NCBI GenBank assembly: GCA_947177545.1
Contig: CAMWVF010000009.1
Location: 1-13,182, forward strand
Length of the DNA stretch: 13,182 nt
Reading direction: 5' to 3'
Origin: an uncultured Clostridia bacterium
GTDB taxonomy: Bacteria; Bacillota; Clostridia; Oscillospirales; Ruminococcaceae
In this document: one piece after another, positions 671 through 13,182 of the stretch
Numbering within the stretch: position 1 is the first letter of the stretch
How the letters are laid out: each line of letters opens with the position of its first letter
Program-made: the position numbers and the translations under genes
Notes under the pieces: generated by a model
Databases searched by the model: none
What the model was told of the DNA's origin: nothing
The model's input: only the letters and a program-made list of their open reading frames with translations

Positions 671-1546
671 TCAAAAAATTTCTTTTGCATTTTTCGGTAA
701 TTTTTTGACTTTTTCAAGCCACATTCGGCTGTTTTTCGCCATTTCAAGGTCGTACTCCGTTTGCAGCTTTTCCGCAATTTCGGGGGCAAATTCGTCCGCC
801 ATACCGCACATTACATAGACGGATTTCCATATCTCGGAAATGTCGGCATTGCTGTAGGTACTCAAAAAACGCTGCCACACAGTAGGTTCAAGCCATTTGT
901 ACATATACTTTGCGGACTTGCCCACGCTGACAGAAAAGTCCGTCTCAAAGCCGATTTTCCATGATAAAATTTTCACAAGCTGGGGACGTATACACTCGTT
1001 CAGCATATCGAGGACATAGAGAAATTCCTCCCGCCACAAGCCCTTTGCCACGTTGTTCATGCACCACCAAAACTCGTTGCAGGCGGCGTAAAATTCCGCC
1101 GCCGTGGGCTTTTTTACGCGGTAGTCCTCATCGGTGGCGGAGGGAATTTTCGGCAGAATACCGTCCTTGTCAAGGAGAATTTTGTAAAGCTTGTCGTCCG
1201 TGACATGGCAGTCCCAAGTCGGCTCAACATGGAGGTCCATTCGGTTGCCGTCCGCAAATTGAATAAGCCAGCCGTAGCATTTGTCAAAAGAAACGTCCCT
1301 GCCAACGGACTTCTCAAGCTCGTCGGGACACTGCATATAAAGCCGTTCGCCGAAAATATCTATCCAGCTTTTGTCCTCGTAAAAGGGCTTTGTCTCGGTG
1401 ACAACGTACACAACGTCGTAATCCTGAAAAATATCGCGCGGGACGTTGGGATTAGTCCGCGAGCCGTTCATATACACCGCCCTGATGCGGTCGTCGGCTT
1501 TCGCCGTGCCGATTATAAGGTCGTACATTTCCTTTTCGGTTCGCAT
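671..1546 (-). CDS. ANT(6)-family aminoglycoside 6-adenylyltransferase-like protein
   Basis: A 291-residue protein, matching the usual 280-300 residues of streptomycin 6-adenylyltransferases (AadE/AadK, Adenyl_transf family). Residues 26-44 carry the family signature: NGSRTN, then FQDYD with the metal-binding pair Asp42 and Asp44. The third carboxylate is Asp104 in NRMDLHVEP. The family transfers AMP from ATP to the 6-hydroxyl of streptomycin, but chromosomal members often have unproven substrates, so resistance is an inference. The gene starts 1 nt after the STM3941-like gene stops; its AAAGGA ribosome site lies inside that gene's 3' end, so the two are probably translationally coupled. All key residues are present and no frameshift is seen. 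Confidence 0.88.
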   Translation of the reverse strand: MRTEKEMYDLIIGTAKADDRIRAVYMNGSRTNPNVPRDIFQDYDVVYVVTETKPFYEDKSWIDIFGERLYMQCPDELEKSVGRDVSFDKCYGWLIQFADGNRMDLHVEPTWDCHVTDDKLYKILLDKDGILPKIPSATDEDYRVKKPTAAEFYAACNEFWWCMNNVAKGLWREEFLYVLDMLNECIRPQLVKILSWKIGFETDFSVSVGKSAKYMYKWLEPTVWQRFLSTYSNADISEIWKSVYVMCGMADEFAPEIAEKLQTEYDLEMAKNSRMWLEKVKKLPKNAKEIF

Positions 1547-5337: not shown

Positions 5338-5356
5338 TCAAGCCTCTCCTTTCGTA

Positions 5357-5485
5357 TTAAAACTTAATGTCGCTTATAGTCAGCTTCATACCGATATCAT
5401 TTCCAACCACTTCGCCTGTTTCATAAAATCCGAACGATCTGTAAAGATTTCTTGCAACGTCATTTGCCGAATAGTACGCGACAGT
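5357..5485 (-). pseudogene. C-terminal remnant of a GNAT acetyltransferase
   Basis: The frame ending at the TAA at 5357-5359 encodes YSANDVARNLYRSFGFYETG followed by EVVGNDIGMKL. This matches the last two conserved blocks of GNAT acetyltransferases (the N-x-x-A-x-x-LY-x-x-x-GF helix/strand and the closing MKL strand), similar to diamine or amino-group acetyltransferases. The upstream two thirds, including the acetyl-CoA loop, are absent: the frame instead runs through the palindromic element and into the carB 3' end in the wrong frame. No start codon with a ribosome site was found for the fragment. It is probably a gene relic left by deletion or by insertion of the adjacent element. The 5' boundary near 5485 is estimated from loss of similarity. 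Confidence 0.7.
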
Positions 5486-5487
5486 CG

Positions 5488-5553
5488 GCATAATATTTAA
5501 TTTACGCCGAAATTTTAATATTATGCGGGCGGATATGGAATCCGCCCTTACAA
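5488..5553. repeat. Composite palindromic intergenic element
   Basis: Two neighbouring inverted repeats. The first is GGGCGGAT (5527-5534) paired with ATCCGCCC (5540-5547) around a 5-nt loop. The second is GCATAATATT (5488-5497) paired with AATATTATGC (5517-5526), continued by a partly matching AATTT/AAATT stretch around an ACGCCG centre. Read on the minus strand it begins TTGTAAGGGCGGAT just after the carB stop. Short GTA-GGGGCGG...CCGCCC palindromes are, as I recall, dispersed in Ruminococcaceae-type genomes, so this may be a REP- or MITE-like repeat; that needs a genome search. There is no T-tract, so it is a poor classical terminator, though it could modulate carB/pyrK transcript stability. 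Confidence 0.6.
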
Positions 5554-5568
5554 GACTGAAAACTTTCC

Positions 5569-8500
5569 TCATATCTTTGTAATATCTATCATTTCCATTT
5601 CGTCGATATTCTTGCCCATCATAAGTATGTCCGCAACAGCGTTTGCGGTGTCTATCGCCGTCAGACAGCATATTGAACGCTCAACCGTCTTGCGGCGTAT
5701 CTTTACGCTGTCAAACGCAGGAATACGTCCCTTTGCCGAGGTTGAGATAACATAGTCCACCTTGCCGCTGTCAAGGAGAGTCATAACGTTTGGCTTTTCC
5801 TCCGAAGCACGCTTTACAACGTTTGCCGCGACCATGTTTCTGTTCAGCATGGAAGCCGTGCCGCTTGTTGCGTAAATGTCAAAGCCCATATGCTCGAACT
5901 TTTCGGCAACGTACAGAATTTCCTGCTTGTCGGTGTCGCGGACGGTTATAAGTACTCCGCCGCCCTGTTTCTTTTCAAAATTATAGCCTGCTCCGACAAG
6001 TCCCTTGTAGAGTGCGTCCTCGAAGCTTCTTGCGATACCCAAGCACTCGCCTGTGGACTTCATCTCCGGTCCCAAAGCGGTGTCAACGTCGTGGAGCTTT
6101 TCAAAGCTGAACACAGGTACTTTTACCGCAATAAAGTCCGCCTCTTTGTACAGACCGCTTGTGTAGCCCTGCTCTTTAAGGCTTTCGCCCAACATAATTC
6201 TTGTGGCAATATCTACCATAGGCACGCCCGTTACCTTAGAAATATATGGAACAGTTCTTGACGAACGTGGGTTAACCTCAATAACGTAAACCTCGTCGTT
6301 GTAAACAACGTACTGAATATTTACAAGACCAATAACGTGCAGCTCCATAGCGAGACGGCGTGTGTACTCGATGATAGTTTCGCGGATTTTCTTTGTGAGA
6401 GTGAGAGCAGGGTACACCGAAATAGAGTCACCGGAATGGATACCCGCACGTTCGATATGCTCCATAATCCCGGGGATAACAAAGTCCGTGCCGTCGCAGA
6501 TAGCGTCAACTTCGACCTCCTTGCCCATCATATATTTGTCGATAAGAACCGGGTTTTCAAGTCCGCCCCGCATGATAATTTCCATGTACTCGATAATGTC
6601 CTGATTTGAATGTGCAATAATCATATTCTGTCCGCCTAAAACATATGAAGGACGCATAAGAACGGGGTAACCAAGCTCCTCGGCGGCTTTCAGAGCCTCC
6701 TCGGTATTCATGACCGTATGACCTGCAGGACGTGGTATTCCGCACTTGTTCAGCAGCTCATCGAAACGCTCTCTGTCCTCGGCAGCGTCAATGCTGTCAG
6801 CGGACGTACCGAGAATATTCACGCCCATGTCGGAAAGGTGCTTTGTCAGCTTGATAGCTGTCTGACCGCCAAACTGTACCACAACGCCGTATGGCTGTTC
6901 TGTTTCAACAATTGCTTCCACGTCCTCCTTGGTAAGCGGGTCGAAATAAAGTCTGTCGCCTGTGTCAAAGTCGGTGGAAACCGTCTCGGGATTGTTGTTG
7001 CAGATAACAGCCTCATACCCCATTTCTTTCAAAGCCCAAACGCAATGTACGGAACAGTAGTCGAACTCGATACCCTGACCGATACGAATAGGTCCCGAAC
7101 CGAAAACAATGACCTTTTTCTTGCCTGAATTTTTCCGTTCGATAAACTGTTTAGCCTCATTTTCCTCGTCAAAGGTAGAGTAGAAATATGGGGTCTCCGC
7201 TTTAAACTCTCCAGCGCAGGTGTCAACCATTTTGAACACCGCTCTTGTGCGCTTAGGACACTTCTGTCCGCTCAAACGCTCGATAGTGCTGTCAAGATAG
7301 CCGTAACGCTTTGCCAAGTCGTATTTTTCTTCGGTCAGCTCACCGTCCTTAAGCAGTCTTTCAAGCTCCACAAGATTGTTGAGCTTAGACAAAAACCAGC
7401 AGTCAATTTTTGTGATCTCGTGTATAGTCTCAATTGGGATATTTCTTTTCAGAGCCTCAAATACCACAAAGGAACGCTCATCGTCCACAGAGTACAAAAG
7501 GTTCTTGATCTCACTGTCCTCAAACTTTTCAAGCTTTTTCAAGTTCATAGTATCAAGTCCCAGCTCGATTGAACGCACCGCTTTCATCATGGCTTGCTCA
7601 AAGGACGTTCCTATTGCCATTACCTCGCCCGTAGCCATCATCTGCGTGCCGAGAGTACGTTTTGCATATACAAATTTATCAAACGCCCACTTGGGGAATT
7701 TTACTACAACATAGTCAAGCGCAGGCTCAAAGCAGGCATAGGTCTTGCCCGTAACCTGATTTATAATTTCGTCAAGACTATATCCGATAGCGATTTTTGT
7801 TGCGACCTTTGCAATGGGGTAGCCTGTGGCTTTTGAGGCAAGAGCAGAGGAACGTGAAACTCTCGGGTTTACTTCGATTACAGCGTACTCAAAGCTTGTA
7901 GGGTGCAGCGCAAACTGACAGTTGCAGCCGCCCTCAACCTTAAGCTCGGAAATGATGTTCAGCGCCGCAGTACGCAGCATCTGGTACTCCTTATCCGTCA
8001 GTGTCACCGCAGGGGCGATAACAATAGAATCGCCTGTGTGAACGCCTACAGGGTCAAAGTTCTCCATAGAGCAAACGGTTATAACATTGCCCTTACTGTC
8101 GCGGATAACCTCAAATTCTATTTCTTTCCAGCCGCTTATGCACTTCTCGATAAGCACCTGCGTAATGGGGGACAAACGCAAGCCGTTTGTGGAAATGTCC
8201 CGAAGCTCGTCCTCGTTGTAGGCGATACCGCCGCCTGTGCCGCCGAGAGTAAAGGCAGGGCGAACAATAACTGGATAATCTATCACCTCGGCAAAGTCAA
8301 CGGCGTCCTCAACAGTTTCAACAACCTTTGAGGGTATGCATGGCTCGCCGATTTTTTCCATAGTGTCCTTGAAAGCCTGTCTGTCCTCCGCTTTATGTAT
8401 GGTTTCGGGATTTGCGCCAAGAAGCTTTACGCCCTGCTCGTCCAAGAAGCCGCACTCCGCAAGCTGCATTGAAAGGGTCAGACCGGTCTGTCCTCCAAGG

Positions 8501-8767: not shown

Positions 8768-9595
8768 TCAGTTGTCCTCCTTTAATAAACTTTCCATAAA
8801 AAATTTTTTAATAAGTTTTACCAAATTGCCGCAGCAATTCGGCATAATTTCCTCAAGGTCGTTTTCAAAACAGTCCATAGACCATTTCAGATTTTTCCTC
8901 ATAAGCTTAAAATCCTCCGTACAGCCGTATTTCATAAGGTGCGCCTGCTTTTCGGCGGGAATAAATTTCAGCTTGTTTTCCGCACCGCCCCAATTTGTTT
9001 CGTCGTACATTGTCAGCAGCAGCGATGTATGAGTATCCATTAATGTTCTCAAAACCTTGTTAAGCTTAAAAAAATCCCTGCGCAGAAAATATTTCACCGA
9101 CATCTGAACGTGAAGCCAGTATGTTTCAGCAAGCCGCTCAACGTCCGCCCGCCACGGTTCGCCTTTGGGAGCGTTAACAATGAGCCTTTCTGCGGCGTTG
9201 TCCTTAGAAAAAATCACATTTTCCTCGGTCAGACCTGTGTAGTGGAACCTGCACATATAGTCATCAATATAGCCGCTGTTCAGCAAAAACACGTCGTACT
9301 GAAAAATTTTACCGTTGAAGCTTAAAATGTAGTCATAATTTTTCATAGCCTCGCCGTTAAAATCCTCTCCCCAGCACAAGACAACCTCGTCACAAACGTC
9401 TGCAAGTATTTCTTTTAGCCGCTTGTCTGTTTCGCTGTAAGCCGACTTATCCGCCAAAATAACTATATCCACATCAGAATATTCGTCAGACAAGCCGTGC
9501 ATATTTGAGCCGAAATACCATGCTGCCCGAACGCCGTCCATCTCCTTAATAAGAGAAATAAAGCTGTCGTTTACGGTTTTAAGCTCGTTCAGCAT
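8768..9595 (-). CDS. Nucleotidyltransferase-domain protein inserted between carA and carB
   Basis: A 275-residue protein with an N-terminal Pol-beta-type nucleotidyltransferase domain: helix-turn motif FGSNMHGLSDEYSDVDIVI with Gly29-Ser30, Asp41 and Asp43, and a third carboxylate Asp101 in FQYDVFLL. The rest is helical and resembles the C-terminal region of aminoglycoside or lincosamide nucleotidyltransferase-like proteins, which transfer an NMP to a small molecule. The substrate is unknown; an antitoxin or regulatory role is also possible. It is not a pyrimidine enzyme. Its ATG lies 1 nt after the carA stop, and carB starts 1 nt after its own stop; both ribosome sites are embedded in the preceding gene. 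The insertion thus preserves tight coupling of the carbamoyl-phosphate synthase genes. All three acidic residues are present, so it is likely active. Confidence 0.85.
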   Translation of the reverse strand: MLNELKTVNDSFISLIKEMDGVRAAWYFGSNMHGLSDEYSDVDIVILADKSAYSETDKRLKEILADVCDEVVLCWGEDFNGEAMKNYDYILSFNGKIFQYDVFLLNSGYIDDYMCRFHYTGLTEENVIFSKDNAAERLIVNAPKGEPWRADVERLAETYWLHVQMSVKYFLRRDFFKLNKVLRTLMDTHTSLLLTMYDETNWGGAENKLKFIPAEKQAHLMKYGCTEDFKLMRKNLKWSMDCFENDLEEIMPNCCGNLVKLIKKFFMESLLKEDN

Positions 9596-9596
9596 A

Positions 9597-10706
9597 TTAC
9601 TCCCCCTTATGTTTCTTTATCATATCAATAAACTCGTCAAAAAGGTACGCCGTGTCGTGAGGACCTCCGCAAGCCTCGGGGTGGAACTGCACCGTAAAGC
9701 ATGGGAAATTCTTATATCTCACGCCCTCGCAGGTTTGGTCGTTGGAATTTTTGTGGGAGACTTCTCCCACATCGGGGGAAATGCTGTCGCTCACAACTGC
9801 GTAGCCGTGGTTCTGGGAAGTAACAAAGGTCTTGTCTAGCCTGATATCGTCAACAGGCTGATTTGCTCCTCTGTGACCATATTTCAGCTTTTCGGTGCGT
9901 GCGCCGTTTGCAAGAGCGGTAAGCTGGTGTCCCAAGCAAATACCGAATGTGGGTATGCCAAGCTTGTTTATCTCTTTCAGATTTTCAATAATATCTGTAT
10001 TTTCCGCAGGGTCGCCAGGACCGTTTGAAAGCATTATGCCATCGGGATTCAGAGCCTTTACCTGCTCCGCCGTTGTGTCCGCCGGGACTACCGTTACATT
10101 GCAGCCGCGCTTTAAAAGCTCACGTCTGATGTTGAATTTATACCCGAAATCAAACAAAGCAACATGGTACTTCGGCTCGTCCGCCTTAAAGAATTCCTGC
10201 TCCTTAACAGTGACAGACTTTACTGCGTTCACAATTTTGAACTCGTTTATCTTTTTCAGAAACTCCTCTTTTTTCTCGTGGACATTCTCCGTGGTGATAA
10301 CGCCGTTCATAACGCCGTGCTCACGGATAATTCTTGTGAGACAGCGTGTATCTATTGAATGTATGCCGATAATATTGTGCTTTTTCAGGAACTCGTCCAC
10401 GTTCCCCTCGCAGCGGAAATTTGAAGGAGCATTGCACCACTCCCGAACCACATAGCCGCTTACCACGGAGGTATTGGACTCATAGTCCGTGTCGTTCACG
10501 CCGTAGTTTCCGATAAGGGGGAACGTCTGGGTGACTATCTGACCGTAGTAGCTTGGGTCGGAGAGAGTTTCCTCGTAGCCCGTCATGCTTGTGGCGAAAA
10601 CTATCTCGCCGAAAGACGTGCCTTTTGCGCCGAAGCTTTGACCCTCGAACACCCTGCCGTCCGCAAGCATAAGATAAGCCTTTTCACCTAAATTAAATAA
10701 AGACAT
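9597..10706 (-). CDS. carA: Carbamoyl-phosphate synthase small subunit (glutaminase)
   Basis: A 369-residue glutamine amidotransferase that releases ammonia from glutamine for CarB. The N-terminal CPSase small-chain domain (about 8-140) contains FGEIVFATSMTGYEETLSDPSY. The class I amidotransferase domain carries LSNGPGDP at 226-233, the nucleophile Cys257 in GICLGHQ, GHRGANQPV, and the His342/Glu344 pair in QFHPEA. Length is normal. The ATG is preceded by GAAAGGA at 9 nt. The 57-bp gap to the Nudix gene upstream is AT-rich, too short for a full PyrR-type attenuator, and holds only a weak TATAAT-like sequence on the minus strand (10763-10768) without a good -35, so transcription probably comes mainly from further upstream. 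Confidence 0.97.
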   Translation of the reverse strand: MSLFNLGEKAYLMLADGRVFEGQSFGAKGTSFGEIVFATSMTGYEETLSDPSYYGQIVTQTFPLIGNYGVNDTDYESNTSVVSGYVVREWCNAPSNFRCEGNVDEFLKKHNIIGIHSIDTRCLTRIIREHGVMNGVITTENVHEKKEEFLKKINEFKIVNAVKSVTVKEQEFFKADEPKYHVALFDFGYKFNIRRELLKRGCNVTVVPADTTAEQVKALNPDGIMLSNGPGDPAENTDIIENLKEINKLGIPTFGICLGHQLTALANGARTEKLKYGHRGANQPVDDIRLDKTFVTSQNHGYAVVSDSISPDVGEVSHKNSNDQTCEGVRYKNFPCFTVQFHPEACGGPHDTAYLFDEFIDMIKKHKGE

Positions 10707-10763
10707 TTTACCAGTCCTTTCAGAGGATAAATCTATTTTTTAAATTATTTTAACTTTATAAAA

Positions 10764-11189
10764 TTATATTTGATTTTTAATGTCCCAAATATATTCAAAG
10801 ATTTTGTGCTTTTCAAAATCGTCAATAATTGCTTTGGGCAGCATATTCCTGCACTCGTCTTTATCCGCCCATATAAACGCTTGATGTTCATTACTCAAAG
10901 TCACAATTTCCGTTTGAGCTTCACAAAGATAAGCAATAATTAAATAGGGTTCTTCCGCATTCACAAGGGTCACATAAGCAACTCGTTCTATTGTGATTTC
11001 TGCAATACCTGTTTCTTCTATTATTTCTCTCTTCATTGCTTCTTCGGGTATTTCTCCATACTCAATATTCCCTCCTGCGTTCTCCCAAGTATTCGCACCG
11101 GTAGGGTCATTCCCGCTTCTCTGAATGAGAAGAACCTTGCCGAGATTTCGGTTGAATATTATGCTTTTGACAATTATATCAGCTTTCAC
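10764..11189 (-). CDS. Nudix hydrolase
   Basis: A 141-residue protein with a perfect Nudix box: Gly40-x5-Glu46-x7-Arg54-Glu55-x2-Glu58-Glu59-x-Gly61-Ile62. The Arg/Glu cluster binds the divalent metal used to cleave nucleoside diphosphates linked to another group. Upstream VLLIQRSGNDPTGANTWENAGG is typical of the MutT-like fold; the substrate (oxidised dNTP, NDP-sugar or other) is not determined. The frame opens with a TTG at 11207, but the GTG at 11187-11189 has AGGAAGG 8 nt upstream and is chosen. It is the last of four small accessory genes between pyrF and carA and is followed by carA after 57 bp. Its codon use looks more AT-rich than that of the car genes, in line with acquisition. Confidence 0.9.
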   Translation of the reverse strand: MKADIIVKSIIFNRNLGKVLLIQRSGNDPTGANTWENAGGNIEYGEIPEEAMKREIIEETGIAEITIERVAYVTLVNAEEPYLIIAYLCEAQTEIVTLSNEHQAFIWADKDECRNMLPKAIIDDFEKHKIFEYIWDIKNQI

Positions 11190-11210
11190 TGTCTTTACCT
11201 TCCTCAATCA

Positions 11211-11300
11211 CGATTTATCAAGCTGCAAATACATTGGTTATGTATGACTGTTATTGATTATATTTATGTAATTTTAACCGCTTGACAAACATGAAATTAC
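11211..11300. repeat. Cassette-spacer repeat, copy A (between Nudix and cupin genes)
   Basis: The left arm at 11211-11245 matches copy D at 33 of 35 positions. The right arm at 11262-11300 matches copies B and C and ends in the cupin stop codon (11297-11299). TTTATCAAGC (11214-11223) can pair with GCTTGACAAA (11280-11289) at 9 of 10 positions, and ATACAT/ATGTAT (11229-11234, 11240-11245) forms an inner hairpin. The whole is a bulged imperfect palindrome of about 90 bp. Confidence 0.75.
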
Positions 11301-11626
11301 CTTTCAATTACAACGGTCAGCAACACCAAGTCATCATCGCCCACATTTATAATGCTGTGTTCGGAGCCTTTTTTACAAATATGACAGCAGCCGGAACGCA
11401 GCGGCTCTTCCTTACCGTCACATATTGCTTTTCCTGTACCCGACAGAATATACTTTATATCGTCGCTTGTCATATGCCTGTGAAGTCCTATCGAACCGCC
11501 CGAATGAATGGTACACGGTATTATTTTTCTTTGCTCGTCCATATACATTTTAGTCGTCATGCTACCTGTGCCGTTATTCATTCCGTGAGCCGTGACCTCT
11601 TTGACAGTATTAAAATCTATCAACAC
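11297..11626 (-). CDS. Small single-domain cupin protein
   Basis: A 109-residue one-domain cupin. Motif 1 is visible as GLHRHMTSDDIKYILSGTG with His49 and His51 as metal ligands; the position normally held by Glu is Asp56. Motif 2 has GCCHICKKGSEHSIIN with His90. Such stand-alone beta-barrels can be isomerases, dioxygenases or ligand sensors; no function can be chosen here. The frame starts with GTG at 11624-11626, with AGGAG 9 nt upstream; a TTG one codon later is an alternative. The gene sits between the membrane-peptide and Nudix genes, with a spacer repeat on each side. Its stop codon lies inside the right arm of copy A, so gene and repeat abut without a gap. Confidence 0.82.
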   Translation of the reverse strand: MLIDFNTVKEVTAHGMNNGTGSMTTKMYMDEQRKIIPCTIHSGGSIGLHRHMTSDDIKYILSGTGKAICDGKEEPLRSGCCHICKKGSEHSIINVGDDDLVLLTVVIER

Positions 11627-11647
11627 TTATCCTCACTCCTAATCACG

Positions 11648-11686
11648 TTTTTTCAAATCAGTACCCACCGTAATATCCTCACTCAT
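11648..11686 (-). repeat. Diverged copy of the pyrF 3' end
   Basis: The block CCGTAATATCCTCACTCAT (11668-11686) matches the pyrF end (12536-12554) at 18 of 19 bases, and TTTTTTCAA (11648-11656) matches 12513-12521, with a 3-nt length difference between. On the minus strand the copy would read MSEDITVGTDLKKRD then stop, against the PyrF terminus MREDITGFVTVLKK. The copy has no ribosome site and is not called a gene. Its presence upstream of the cupin gene implies duplication or insertion at the pyrF terminus. Confidence 0.75.
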
Positions 11687-11690
11687 TTTT

Positions 11691-11731
11691 ATTTTAATGC
11701 TGATTTTACCGCTTGATAAACGTGAAGTTTA
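11691..11731. repeat. Cassette-spacer repeat, copy B (right arm)
   Basis: ATTTTACCGCTTGATAAACG and the following TGAAGTTTA correspond to the right arms of copies A and C, ending in the stop codon of the membrane-peptide gene (11729-11731). GCTTGATAAA (11711-11720) is the exact complement of the left-arm core TTTATCAAGC. The expected left arm is missing or replaced by the pyrF-end copy at 11648-11686. On the minus strand TTATCA, 17 bp, TAAAAT could act as a promoter for the cupin gene. Confidence 0.65.
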
Positions 11732-11917
11732 ATTTTGGTATTTTTTAACAGCAGTATAAGCCAAAACAGGAAGAGCAATCAGATCCACAATGCCTATTAT
11801 TCTTACAGCGATATCGGGCAATTCTATTCCTATAATATTTGAACCTGCCAAAATTGTTGTTGCAGCTCCAATTATTATTAAACTAAAGCACCACATCAAA
11901 TAATTTTTCTTCTTCAT
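11729..11917 (-). CDS. Small two-helix membrane protein (62 residues)
   Basis: A 62-residue protein with a basic N-terminus (MKKKNY), a first hydrophobic helix at about 7-30 (LMWCFSLIIIGAATTILAGS), an IGIELPD turn and a second hydrophobic helix at about 35-57, ending KKYQN. By the positive-inside rule both ends would face the cytoplasm. I do not recognise the family and no function is proposed. GGAGGT lies 6 nt before the ATG at 11915-11917, a strong ribosome site that supports real expression. It lies between the GNAT and cupin genes, bounded by spacer copy C upstream and by copy B beginning at its own stop codon. Confidence 0.7.
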   Translation of the reverse strand: MKKKNYLMWCFSLIIIGAATTILAGSNIIGIELPDIAVRIIGIVDLIALPVLAYTAVKKYQN

Positions 11918-11934
11918 AACAGACCTCCAAGTTA

Positions 11935-12000
11935 CGGTTTACCAAGCTGAAATACATTTTATTTATGTAAATCAAGCCGCTTGACAAAATGAATTTACGG
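11935..12000. repeat. Cassette-spacer repeat, copy C (between membrane-peptide and GNAT genes)
   Basis: The shortest complete copy, 66 bp. The left arm CGGTTTACCAAGCTGAAATA (from 11935) matches copies A and D, and the right arm CCGCTTGACAAAATGAATTT (from 11978) matches copies A and B, ending at the GNAT stop codon (11995-11997). TTTACCAAGC (11938-11947) pairs with GCTTGACAAA (11979-11988) at 8 of 10 positions, and TACAT/ATGTA forms an inner stem. Unpaired bases lie mainly on one side. Confidence 0.75.
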
Positions 12001-12441
12001 ATATAAAACCAGCCTTTGATTTGGATAGCCAAATTCTTCAATAAGTTCTGCTTCTTTGAATCCAAACTTTTTATACAGTGCCCTCGGAGCAATTCCCTTT
12101 TCATCATCTTCACGGAATGTTGAGACTGAAATCTCCTTGCTTCTGTCCAATTCACCGAGTGCTTTTTCCAAAAGAGCAGAACCGATACCCTGCCGCCTAT
12201 ATTCGGGCGCAACAGCCATACAACAAATCATACTGCGGTTTCGTGAAAACAAAATCACACCCGCGATATCATTGACGTGCTTTATGCACAAAGCCTGTTT
12301 CTTATCCATGAATTTCAGCACTGTCTGCGAATGTTCTTCTATGCTCTCATCTGTTTCCAGTCCGGGAAAATTCCAACTTACACGTTTGATCAAATTCATC
12401 CACTGTTCAATGTCGGATGTTTTTCCGAATAACACTTCCAT
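11995..12441 (-). CDS. GNAT-family N-acetyltransferase
   Basis: A 148-residue acetyltransferase. The acetyl-CoA binding motif A is CCMAVAPEYRRQGIGSALLE (73-92) with the pyrophosphate loop RRQGIG at 82-87, and motif B includes ALYKKFGFKEAELIEEFGYP (121-140). It should move an acetyl group from acetyl-CoA to an amine; the acceptor is unknown. The frame extends to 12480, but the ATG at 12439-12441 has GAGGAG about 9 nt upstream and the extension would consist of spacer repeat D, so the shorter form is chosen. It is the first gene after pyrF in the accessory block. It is not the parent of the GNAT fragment near 5357: the two C-terminal segments differ clearly. Confidence 0.9.
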   Translation of the reverse strand: MEVLFGKTSDIEQWMNLIKRVSWNFPGLETDESIEEHSQTVLKFMDKKQALCIKHVNDIAGVILFSRNRSMICCMAVAPEYRRQGIGSALLEKALGELDRSKEISVSTFREDDEKGIAPRALYKKFGFKEAELIEEFGYPNQRLVLYP

Positions 12442-12462
12442 AGAAAACTTCTCCTCAAATTC

Positions 12463-12497
12463 CGATTTATCAAGCTGCAATTACATTGGTTATTTAT
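12463..12497. repeat. Cassette-spacer repeat, copy D (left arm only, next to pyrF)
   Basis: Thirty-five bases matching the left arm of copy A at 33 positions, including TTTATCAAGC at 12466-12475. No right arm follows; instead the pyrF stop codon (12510-12512) lies 12 bp away. Copy D thus marks the pyrF-side edge of the accessory block. Confidence 0.75.
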
Positions 12498-12509
12498 AAA
12501 CCGTCAGTC

Positions 12510-13182
12510 TTATTTTTTCAATACCGTAACAAACCCCGTAATATCCTCTCTCATGCGTATGCACTCGCGCCTTGCCGCGCCCGCGAAATCGTGAGGGTCG
12601 CAGCCCTCCTCCTTCTGGTACGCGCACATAACCGCTCTGGACGAGTTCACGATAGCCCCAAGACCCTTTTGGTCGAAAGCCTTTGCAACGCCCTCCGCGC
12701 CGCCGCCCTGCGCTCCGTAGCCGGGAACAAGGAAAAATGTGTGAGGGAGCTTTTCTCTCATTTCAGCAAGCTGTTCGGGATAAGTGGCTCCCACAACCGC
12801 GCCGACTGCGGAGTAGCCGTACTCTCCGATAGTTTCAGCGCCCCAATTCTCGCACATATCGCCCATAGTCTCGTATATGGTCTTGCCGTCGTCAAGCTTT
12901 CTGTCCTGCAATTCACCGCTGGACTTGTTGGAGGTCTTGACAAGAACAAAGATACCCTTGTCATTTTTCTTGCAAGCCGCTGTAAGAGGAGCAATACCGT
13001 CTGTTCCAAGGTAGCCGTTTACGGTGAGAGCGTCCGCGCCGAAGCCCTCAAAAGCCGTGCCGTCCACGTCCGCAGAACCCAAGTAAGCGTTTGTGTAGGC
13101 TTCCATGGTTGCGCCTATGTCGTTGCGCTTGCCGTCAACAATGACAAACATACCCTTTTTCTGCGCGTACTCAATTGTATCG
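12510..13182 (-). CDS. pyrF: Orotidine 5'-phosphate decarboxylase, subfamily 2, 5' end outside the window
   Basis: The C-terminal 223 residues of the enzyme that decarboxylates OMP to UMP. The frame is open to the window edge: the codons before the first internal ATG (13149-13151) read DTIEYAQKKG, so that Met is not the start. The active-site motif FVIVDGKRNDIGATMEAY carries the Asp-x-Lys-Arg-x-Asp signature, and VPGYGAQGGGAEG supplies the phosphate-binding loop. Sequence style and spacing fit the long subfamily 2 (TIGR02127 type) rather than the short E. coli type. It is the most upstream visible operon gene, so the operon promoter lies outside the window. Its 3' end is partly duplicated at 11648-11686. 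Confidence 0.95.
   Translation of the reverse strand, partial: DTIEYAQKKGMFVIVDGKRNDIGATMEAYTNAYLGSADVDGTAFEGFGADALTVNGYLGTDGIAPLTAACKKNDKGIFVLVKTSNKSSGELQDRKLDDGKTIYETMGDMCENWGAETIGEYGYSAVGAVVGATYPEQLAEMREKLPHTFFLVPGYGAQGGGAEGVAKAFDQKGLGAIVNSSRAVMCAYQKEEGCDPHDFAGAARRECIRMREDITGFVTVLKK

Follow-up and report, generated by a model that had tools for sequence, protein, structure and literature searches.

A probable gene-exchange hotspot between pyrF and carA in one clade of Ruminococcus-like Clostridia

The stretch of DNA analysed here, referred to below as the window, is the entire contig CAMWVF010000009.1 (13,182 nucleotides) of an uncultured Clostridia bacterium, whose draft genome (G000) comprises 1.89 Mb in 386 contigs and is 55.3% complete. 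Its minus strand carries a pyrimidine (pyr) operon in the order pyrF, GNAT, membrane peptide, cupin, Nudix, carA, nucleotidyltransferase gene, carB, pyrK and pyrD, where carB and pyrK are named from their sequences. This work concerns the row of small genes between pyrF and carA, called cargo genes below, and the related spacers between them. The upstream anchor, pyrF (12510..13182), is cut by the contig end and matches Pfam OMPdecase (4.9e-20), and the downstream anchor is carA (9597..10706; CPSase_sm_chain, 1.4e-53). The cargo consists of a GNAT acetyltransferase (11995..12480; Acetyltransf_7, 2.5e-13), a 62-aa membrane peptide with no Pfam match (11729..11917), a cupin (11297..11626; Cupin_2, 2.1e-13) and a Nudix gene (10764..11207; NUDIX, 4e-16), all on the minus strand. 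Judging from the sequence, GNAT probably starts at the ATG at 12441 and Nudix at the GTG at 11189, each of which lies behind a ribosome site and fits better than the listed TTG. The G+C content of the cargo is 0.32-0.43, against 0.48-0.54 for the pyr genes.

Four related spacers, also read on the minus strand, accompany these genes. A full spacer has about 90 nt, and its cores in gene direction are TTTRTCAAGCGG and CAGCTTGRTAAA. Spacer D (11208..11296) is the fullest copy and has both arms: in gene direction, the stop codon is followed by TTTGTCAAGCGG, an AT-rich middle, GCAGCTTGATAAATCGTGATTG and the ribosome site. It is 97% identical to a consensus built from itself and its counterpart in the sister genome G010. 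Spacer B (11918..11994) has both arms with a shortened middle, spacer C (11627..11728) consists of a left arm, a piece resembling the 3' end of pyrF (11648-11686) and then CGTGATT, and spacer A (12458..12509) is a right half only, with the right-arm core at 12466-12477 and 94% identity to the repeat consensus over 35 nt. Compared with D, the similarity reaches E=4e-9 for A, E=1.6e-6 for B and E=8e-5 for C, and one 40-nt spacer pair is 90% identical. An earlier note on this DNA had described four small genes of one orientation between pyrF and carA with related repeats between them, and this description holds. Its claim that the right arm begins exactly at the stop codon does not, as the core starts 6 nt (B), 7 nt (D) or 8 nt (C) after it; a looser similarity takes in the stop codon itself. 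The note also proposed a bulged hairpin wherever both arms exist. The arms do pair in B and D, but DNA folding compared with shuffled sequences gave z = -1.32 for D, -0.90 for B, -2.31 for C and -0.20 for A, and the two-armed copies are thus not outstanding.

Among the genomes of the genus, pyrF was found in 20 of 21. Out of 454 pyrF loci in named genomes, the best 80 served to survey the junction: 31 have carA downstream, and in the other 49 there is no carA in the DNA available. The gap between the two genes is 18-94 bp in 22 of the 31 loci, near-empty junctions of the kind the earlier note proposed to look for, 139-211 bp in three (L128, L130, L133) and 512-1675 bp in six (L112, L113, L116, L117, L135 and L182, the last outside the clade described below), against 1803 bp in the window. 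In L114, the locus of G009, pyrF is followed by 1384 bp of other genes and then by the contig end. As a separate observation, L182 has two tandem related genes with no Pfam match between pyrF and carA (6643-7573).

The contents of the occupied junctions differ from genome to genome. G010 has GNAT, the membrane peptide and Nudix, with the cupin absent. The junction of G013 (L113) holds DUF6608 and an FMN reductase, that of G009 holds the same two followed by the start of DUF1349, and that of G008 holds DUF6608 and DUF1349, where the genes of G013 and the DUF6608 of G008 were named through their G009 counterparts. G007 has another GNAT, and G016 (L135) has a CrtO-like protein, a 148-aa protein with no match over the cut-off, and a Cass2-type protein (7786-8244), whose Pfam domain is named after integron cassettes in a locus that has no integron. 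All named cargo genes in the relatives run in operon direction. The relatives thus carry varying gene sets, and not the same four genes in the same order, which the earlier note had named, together with a repeat confined to this place, as a sign against its reading. Given that most of the array is common to two assemblies (window and G010), an assembly artefact is unlikely.

In a tree built from pyrF and carA, all seven cargo-bearing genomes group in a single clade (support 100/100), separated from the remaining 18. The 25 rows comprise the window and L112-L135, with L114 represented by pyrF only and L182 left out; gaps of 139-211 bp were taken as empty, and L114 was taken as cargo despite the missing carA. 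The array of G016 contains 45 nt of the 3' end of Nudix (88.9% identity, E=4e-9; 0/1000 shuffles as good), and from this remnant we consider that Nudix was probably present in the ancestor of the clade. The cupin, in turn, was probably gained from outside, to judge by its relatives: the other 20 genus genomes have only 28-33% matches to it, and the public databases hold 991 proteins at E<=1e-10, of which the 120 listed, apart from its own, share 71-87% identity and carry names such as Ruminococcus, Prevotella and Eubacteriales among the matches listed. The GNAT protein has a 99% identical counterpart in the array of G010 and relatives of 63-70% identity at other loci of G007 and G013.

Comparing the window with G010 reveals a tract of 664 nt (11948..12611, minus strand) with only two differences, whose edges lie about 100 nt inside the end of pyrF and in the right arm of spacer B. 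The two genomes differ at 46/673 positions in pyrF, 42/1110 in carA, 14/444 in Nudix and 15/189 in the membrane gene (174/198 alignment columns identical, a 9-nt gap included), against 2/486 in GNAT, a divergence lower than that of pyrF (Fisher, 1.9e-9) and carA (3.6e-5). The near-identical tract is best read as the product of a recent exchange whose right edge falls in a spacer.

Two further seams carry similar marks. The spacer between the membrane gene and Nudix in G010 matches C in its left part (27/29 columns, against 23/30 to D) and D in its right part (66/70, against 23/40 for the next part of C). Such a mosaic of C on the left and D on the right is what one would expect if spacers had recombined with each other, removing or adding the cupin unit. 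In spacer C, 39 nt align to the 3' end of pyrF with a Smith-Waterman score of 47, where the shuffle maximum is 33 and 0/1000 shuffles score as high; spacers A, B and D score 14-18 against the same end. The piece also matches the pyrF genes of G001 and of the other six genomes with cargo (0/1000 shuffles each); its match to the pyrF of G014 is weak (23/1000 shuffles). Because spacer C contains this piece, we read the cupin as having come from a junction where it directly followed pyrF.

The repeat was then searched for outside the junction. With a 93-nt spacer consensus at E<=1e-3, the 21 genus genomes gave matches at the pyrF-carA junctions of G000, G010, G007 and G008, the copies of G013 and G009 scoring just above that limit. 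Only two other matches passed it, in G008 and G009 (E=4e-4), and both were ruled out as AT-rich leader DNA. Many weaker matches at E>0.005 are among those listed for the genus, of which four were inspected. A draw of 396 genomes of the family (126 genera), which included some but not all of the species with arrays, gave seven weak matches, 23-41 nt long, in six genomes besides the window's own; examined by eye over 130 nt on each side, they were AT-rich or unrelated and were rejected. Exact cores occur elsewhere in the window's own genome at two further places per core (C11 and C250; C110 and C127), which look like coding DNA by eye and were likewise rejected. A strict two-arm pattern found only B and D of the window in 199 genomes. 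The repeat was absent within about 1.5 kb on each side of the Nudix relatives (68-70% identity) in G018, G004 and G012, with one 14-nt match at the G004 locus (E=0.003), and within the same distance of the GNAT relative (70%) in G013. From these comparisons, the repeat appears tied to the locus and not to the gene. No match to the region was found in plasmid and phage records, and among the literature titles listed, none reports an array of this kind in Ruminococcus or at the pyrF-carA junction.

Other seams of the operon have also gained genes. The gap between carA and carB is 1-3 bp in 28 of 31 measured loci, the window counted among them, and is expanded to 830 bp in the window, 823 bp in G013 and 850 bp in G016. 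In the window, it holds a gene with a nucleotidyltransferase domain (8768..9595, minus strand), separated from carA and carB by 1 nt each. A tblastn comparison with 32 other pyr loci, two of them ending before carB, gave no match to this gene. The inserts of L113 and L135 look lipoprotein-like by eye, have a 1-bp seam and share 45% across residues 1-31; that of L113 starts ATGCCGTTGAAAAAA, almost like carB. The gap between carB and pyrK is expanded to 556-1411 bp in 7 of 14 loci (L120, L121, L123, L124, L128, L129 and L160), apparently by other small genes, and in the window it measures 231 bp (5338..5568, minus strand) and contains a remnant that resembles a GNAT 3' end by eye and has no Pfam match. 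By eye, the TTTRTCAAGC repeat was not seen at the other gene-gaining seams of the pyr operon. Since genes enter several seams and the repeat was seen at one only, this suggests the repeat is a local by-product and not the cause. Beyond the end of the operon, positions 671-1546 (minus strand) encode a full-length Streptomycin adenylyltransferase domain (PF04439, 1.2e-113).

We consider it likely that the pyrF-carA junction is an operon-internal hotspot of gene exchange in one Ruminococcus-like clade of Clostridia, at which ordinary recombination moves genes and copies the spacers along with them. The content of the junction is variable, cargo is confined to one clade in the 25-locus tree, a near-identical tract ends in a spacer, pieces of neighbouring genes lie in the spacers, and no convincing copy of the repeat is found elsewhere. 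Homologous recombination is consistent with the one near-identical tract and its edges in pyrF and spacer B; the directions of the events, the recombination enzymes, the route of DNA entry and co-transcription are what we infer. Small genes would enter in operon direction, in which they could be read from the operon promoter, and RecA-type recombination between junctions of different strains would both bring and remove them. On one side, the homology would lie in pyrF, carA, a shared gene or a spacer, and on the other side, homology or short homology would be offered by the spacer that runs from stop codon to ribosome site. The content of an array may also change when its own spacers recombine with each other. 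Each event would copy a spacer, at times with a piece of a neighbouring gene, and the repeats would mainly be a product of exchange that, once there, supplies homology for later gains and losses. ComEC (PF03772) is present in 20 of the 21 genus genomes, the exception being that of the window with its 55% completeness, and also in 10 of 14 controls; being this common, it proves nothing about DNA entry.

Several points weigh against this reading. The arms pair in three of the four full copies (B, D and the G010 copy of D), and duplication alone does not demand pairing. The position of the tract edge in spacer B is known only to within some tens of bases and could be due to chance, and strong selection on GNAT is a possible alternative that would likewise lower its divergence. 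The left arm behind TAA yields 25 matches in the 21 genomes (L224-L248), seven of them at the pyrF-carA junction (three in G000, two in G010 and two in G016); the 18 others stand against five control matches and are promoter-like or coding by eye, an excess unexplained beyond promoter-like context. The genome-wide control for junction insertion, made between the window genome (25 contigs or parts) and about one third of G001, gave 23 reciprocal best hits and nine comparable tight neighbour pairs, which are too few to tell whether the pyr operon stands out; three of the nine are expanded in the window genome, and two of these are pyr junctions. Finally, each species is represented by one genome, mostly a fragmented metagenome assembly, at which level exchange within species is not seen.

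A different reason for keeping the spacers would be a role as RNA elements, with a hairpin in the transcript serving mRNA processing, stability or translation between genes. Their location between stop codon and ribosome site would suit such an element, and RNA folding gave z = -2.08 for D, -2.23 for B and -3.09 for the counterpart of D in G010. The counterpart of B, however, gave z = -1.18, with 19/200 shuffles equally good, and RNA folding of the full copies B and D is moderate. Moreover, A and C and the copies of G007, G008 and G016 lack an arm or the middle, and the Rfam search gave no match at the gathering score, its one sub-threshold match lying elsewhere in the region and being chance-like. 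We therefore regard a retained RNA element as unlikely, although it fares better than the other alternatives.

The earlier note had suggested a recombination-built cassette array. The recombination part is favoured by the variable gene sets and the exchange tract; a cassette system of its own is not supported, given that the repeat is bound to the locus and that pieces of neighbouring genes occur at the seams. Such a site-specific system would move a gene together with its repeat, with a putative recombinase reading the folded arms as IntI does with attC. It would account for the repeat between stop codon and ribosome site, for the pairing arms of B, of D and of D's counterpart in G010, for the difference between the window and G010, which amounts to the cupin plus one repeat, for the co-directional array and for the 'integron-associated' Cass2 domain in the cargo of G016. 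The attC sites of integrons, however, carry RYYYAAC ... GTTRRRY boxes, and these R-box motifs are present neither in spacers A-D nor as an ordered pair on either strand of 10701-12520, as the note had already remarked. It had also seen no integrase, and a search of 41 genomes with the IntI model TIGR02249, the 21 of the genus included and that of the window 55% complete, gave none above the cut-off; weak matches below the cut-off occur in all 41 and likewise in all 14 controls. By eye, 8 of 12 aligned copies lack one arm, and both arms are present in four copies only. Clusters of attC sites lacking integron integrases (CALIN) have by definition no intI. A gene moving together with its own attC was not encountered in the four cargo relatives examined at other loci (three Nudix and one GNAT), all four of which lack the repeat. 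As for arrays elsewhere, which the note had proposed to look for, other gene sets do occur at the pyrF-carA junction of relatives, but no convincing copy of the repeat is found at another locus. PMC9024848 describes complete integrons as very rare in Firmicutes. The array is cassette-like in outcome but fails the integron tests for an integrase, for R boxes and for a repeat carried with the gene, and a dedicated cassette system is not supported and appears very improbable to us.

We find it equally hard to credit that the pyr seams (stop, short spacer, ribosome site and start) are targets of an undescribed insertion activity that leaves a copy of the seam on either side of each inserted gene, a seam of 90 nt at the pyrF-carA junction and a short one between carA and carB. 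Each carA-carB insert has on either side a G-rich ribosome site with a stop or start behind it. These flanks form a plain repeat in G016, where both read AGGAGGGCAAA, and in G013, but only a loose one in the window, where the left site reads AAGGGGGAGTAA-T-ATG and the right one AAGGAGGACAACTGA-A-ATG. Because any gene needs a ribosome site, G-rich sites on both sides are weak evidence for a copied seam. Dead miniature transposons inserted several times between the genes, to which the imperfect inverted ends and the size of about 90 nt might point, are the least probable of all, as no convincing copies occur elsewhere in the genus or in the 396 family genomes and the copies differ by internal and terminal truncation.

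Returning to the exchange hotspot, its nearest counterparts are the minimal mobile elements (MMEs) of Neisseria, which PMC3082526 defines as a conserved gene pair with different whole-gene cassettes between, incorporated by homologous recombination. Likewise, pyrF and carA are conserved here, with different whole-gene contents between genomes. In contrast with the MMEs, this locus lies in a biosynthetic operon, its named cargo is co-directional and stands in a row, its related spacers contain pieces of neighbouring genes, and the variation is between species representatives instead of strains. With integrons and CALIN arrays (PMC8618304, PMC9024848), it shares tandem, small, unrelated and co-directional genes with a related, partly palindromic element between; it differs from them in the lack of an integrase above the cut-off, the absent R boxes, the incomplete arms, the neighbour-gene pieces at the seams and the lack of the repeat in the examined cargo relatives. 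Similar to the horizontally acquired genes inserted into operons that are treated in PMC2259305, foreign genes are joined to a resident operon, yet here the turnover is repeated at the same seams and leaves recognisable scars. By this analogy, the hotspot would be of the Neisseria MME kind, in an unusual place and with self-copying spacers.

If so, an integron-like picture can arise by ordinary recombination, where each event copies the spacers and these then provide the homology for the next, in a group in which integrons are almost unknown. The pyrimidine operon would be a site at which a housekeeping promoter may give accessory genes a trial, and the junction is a defined locus at which gains and losses of genes can be measured in gut bacteria that are uncultured.

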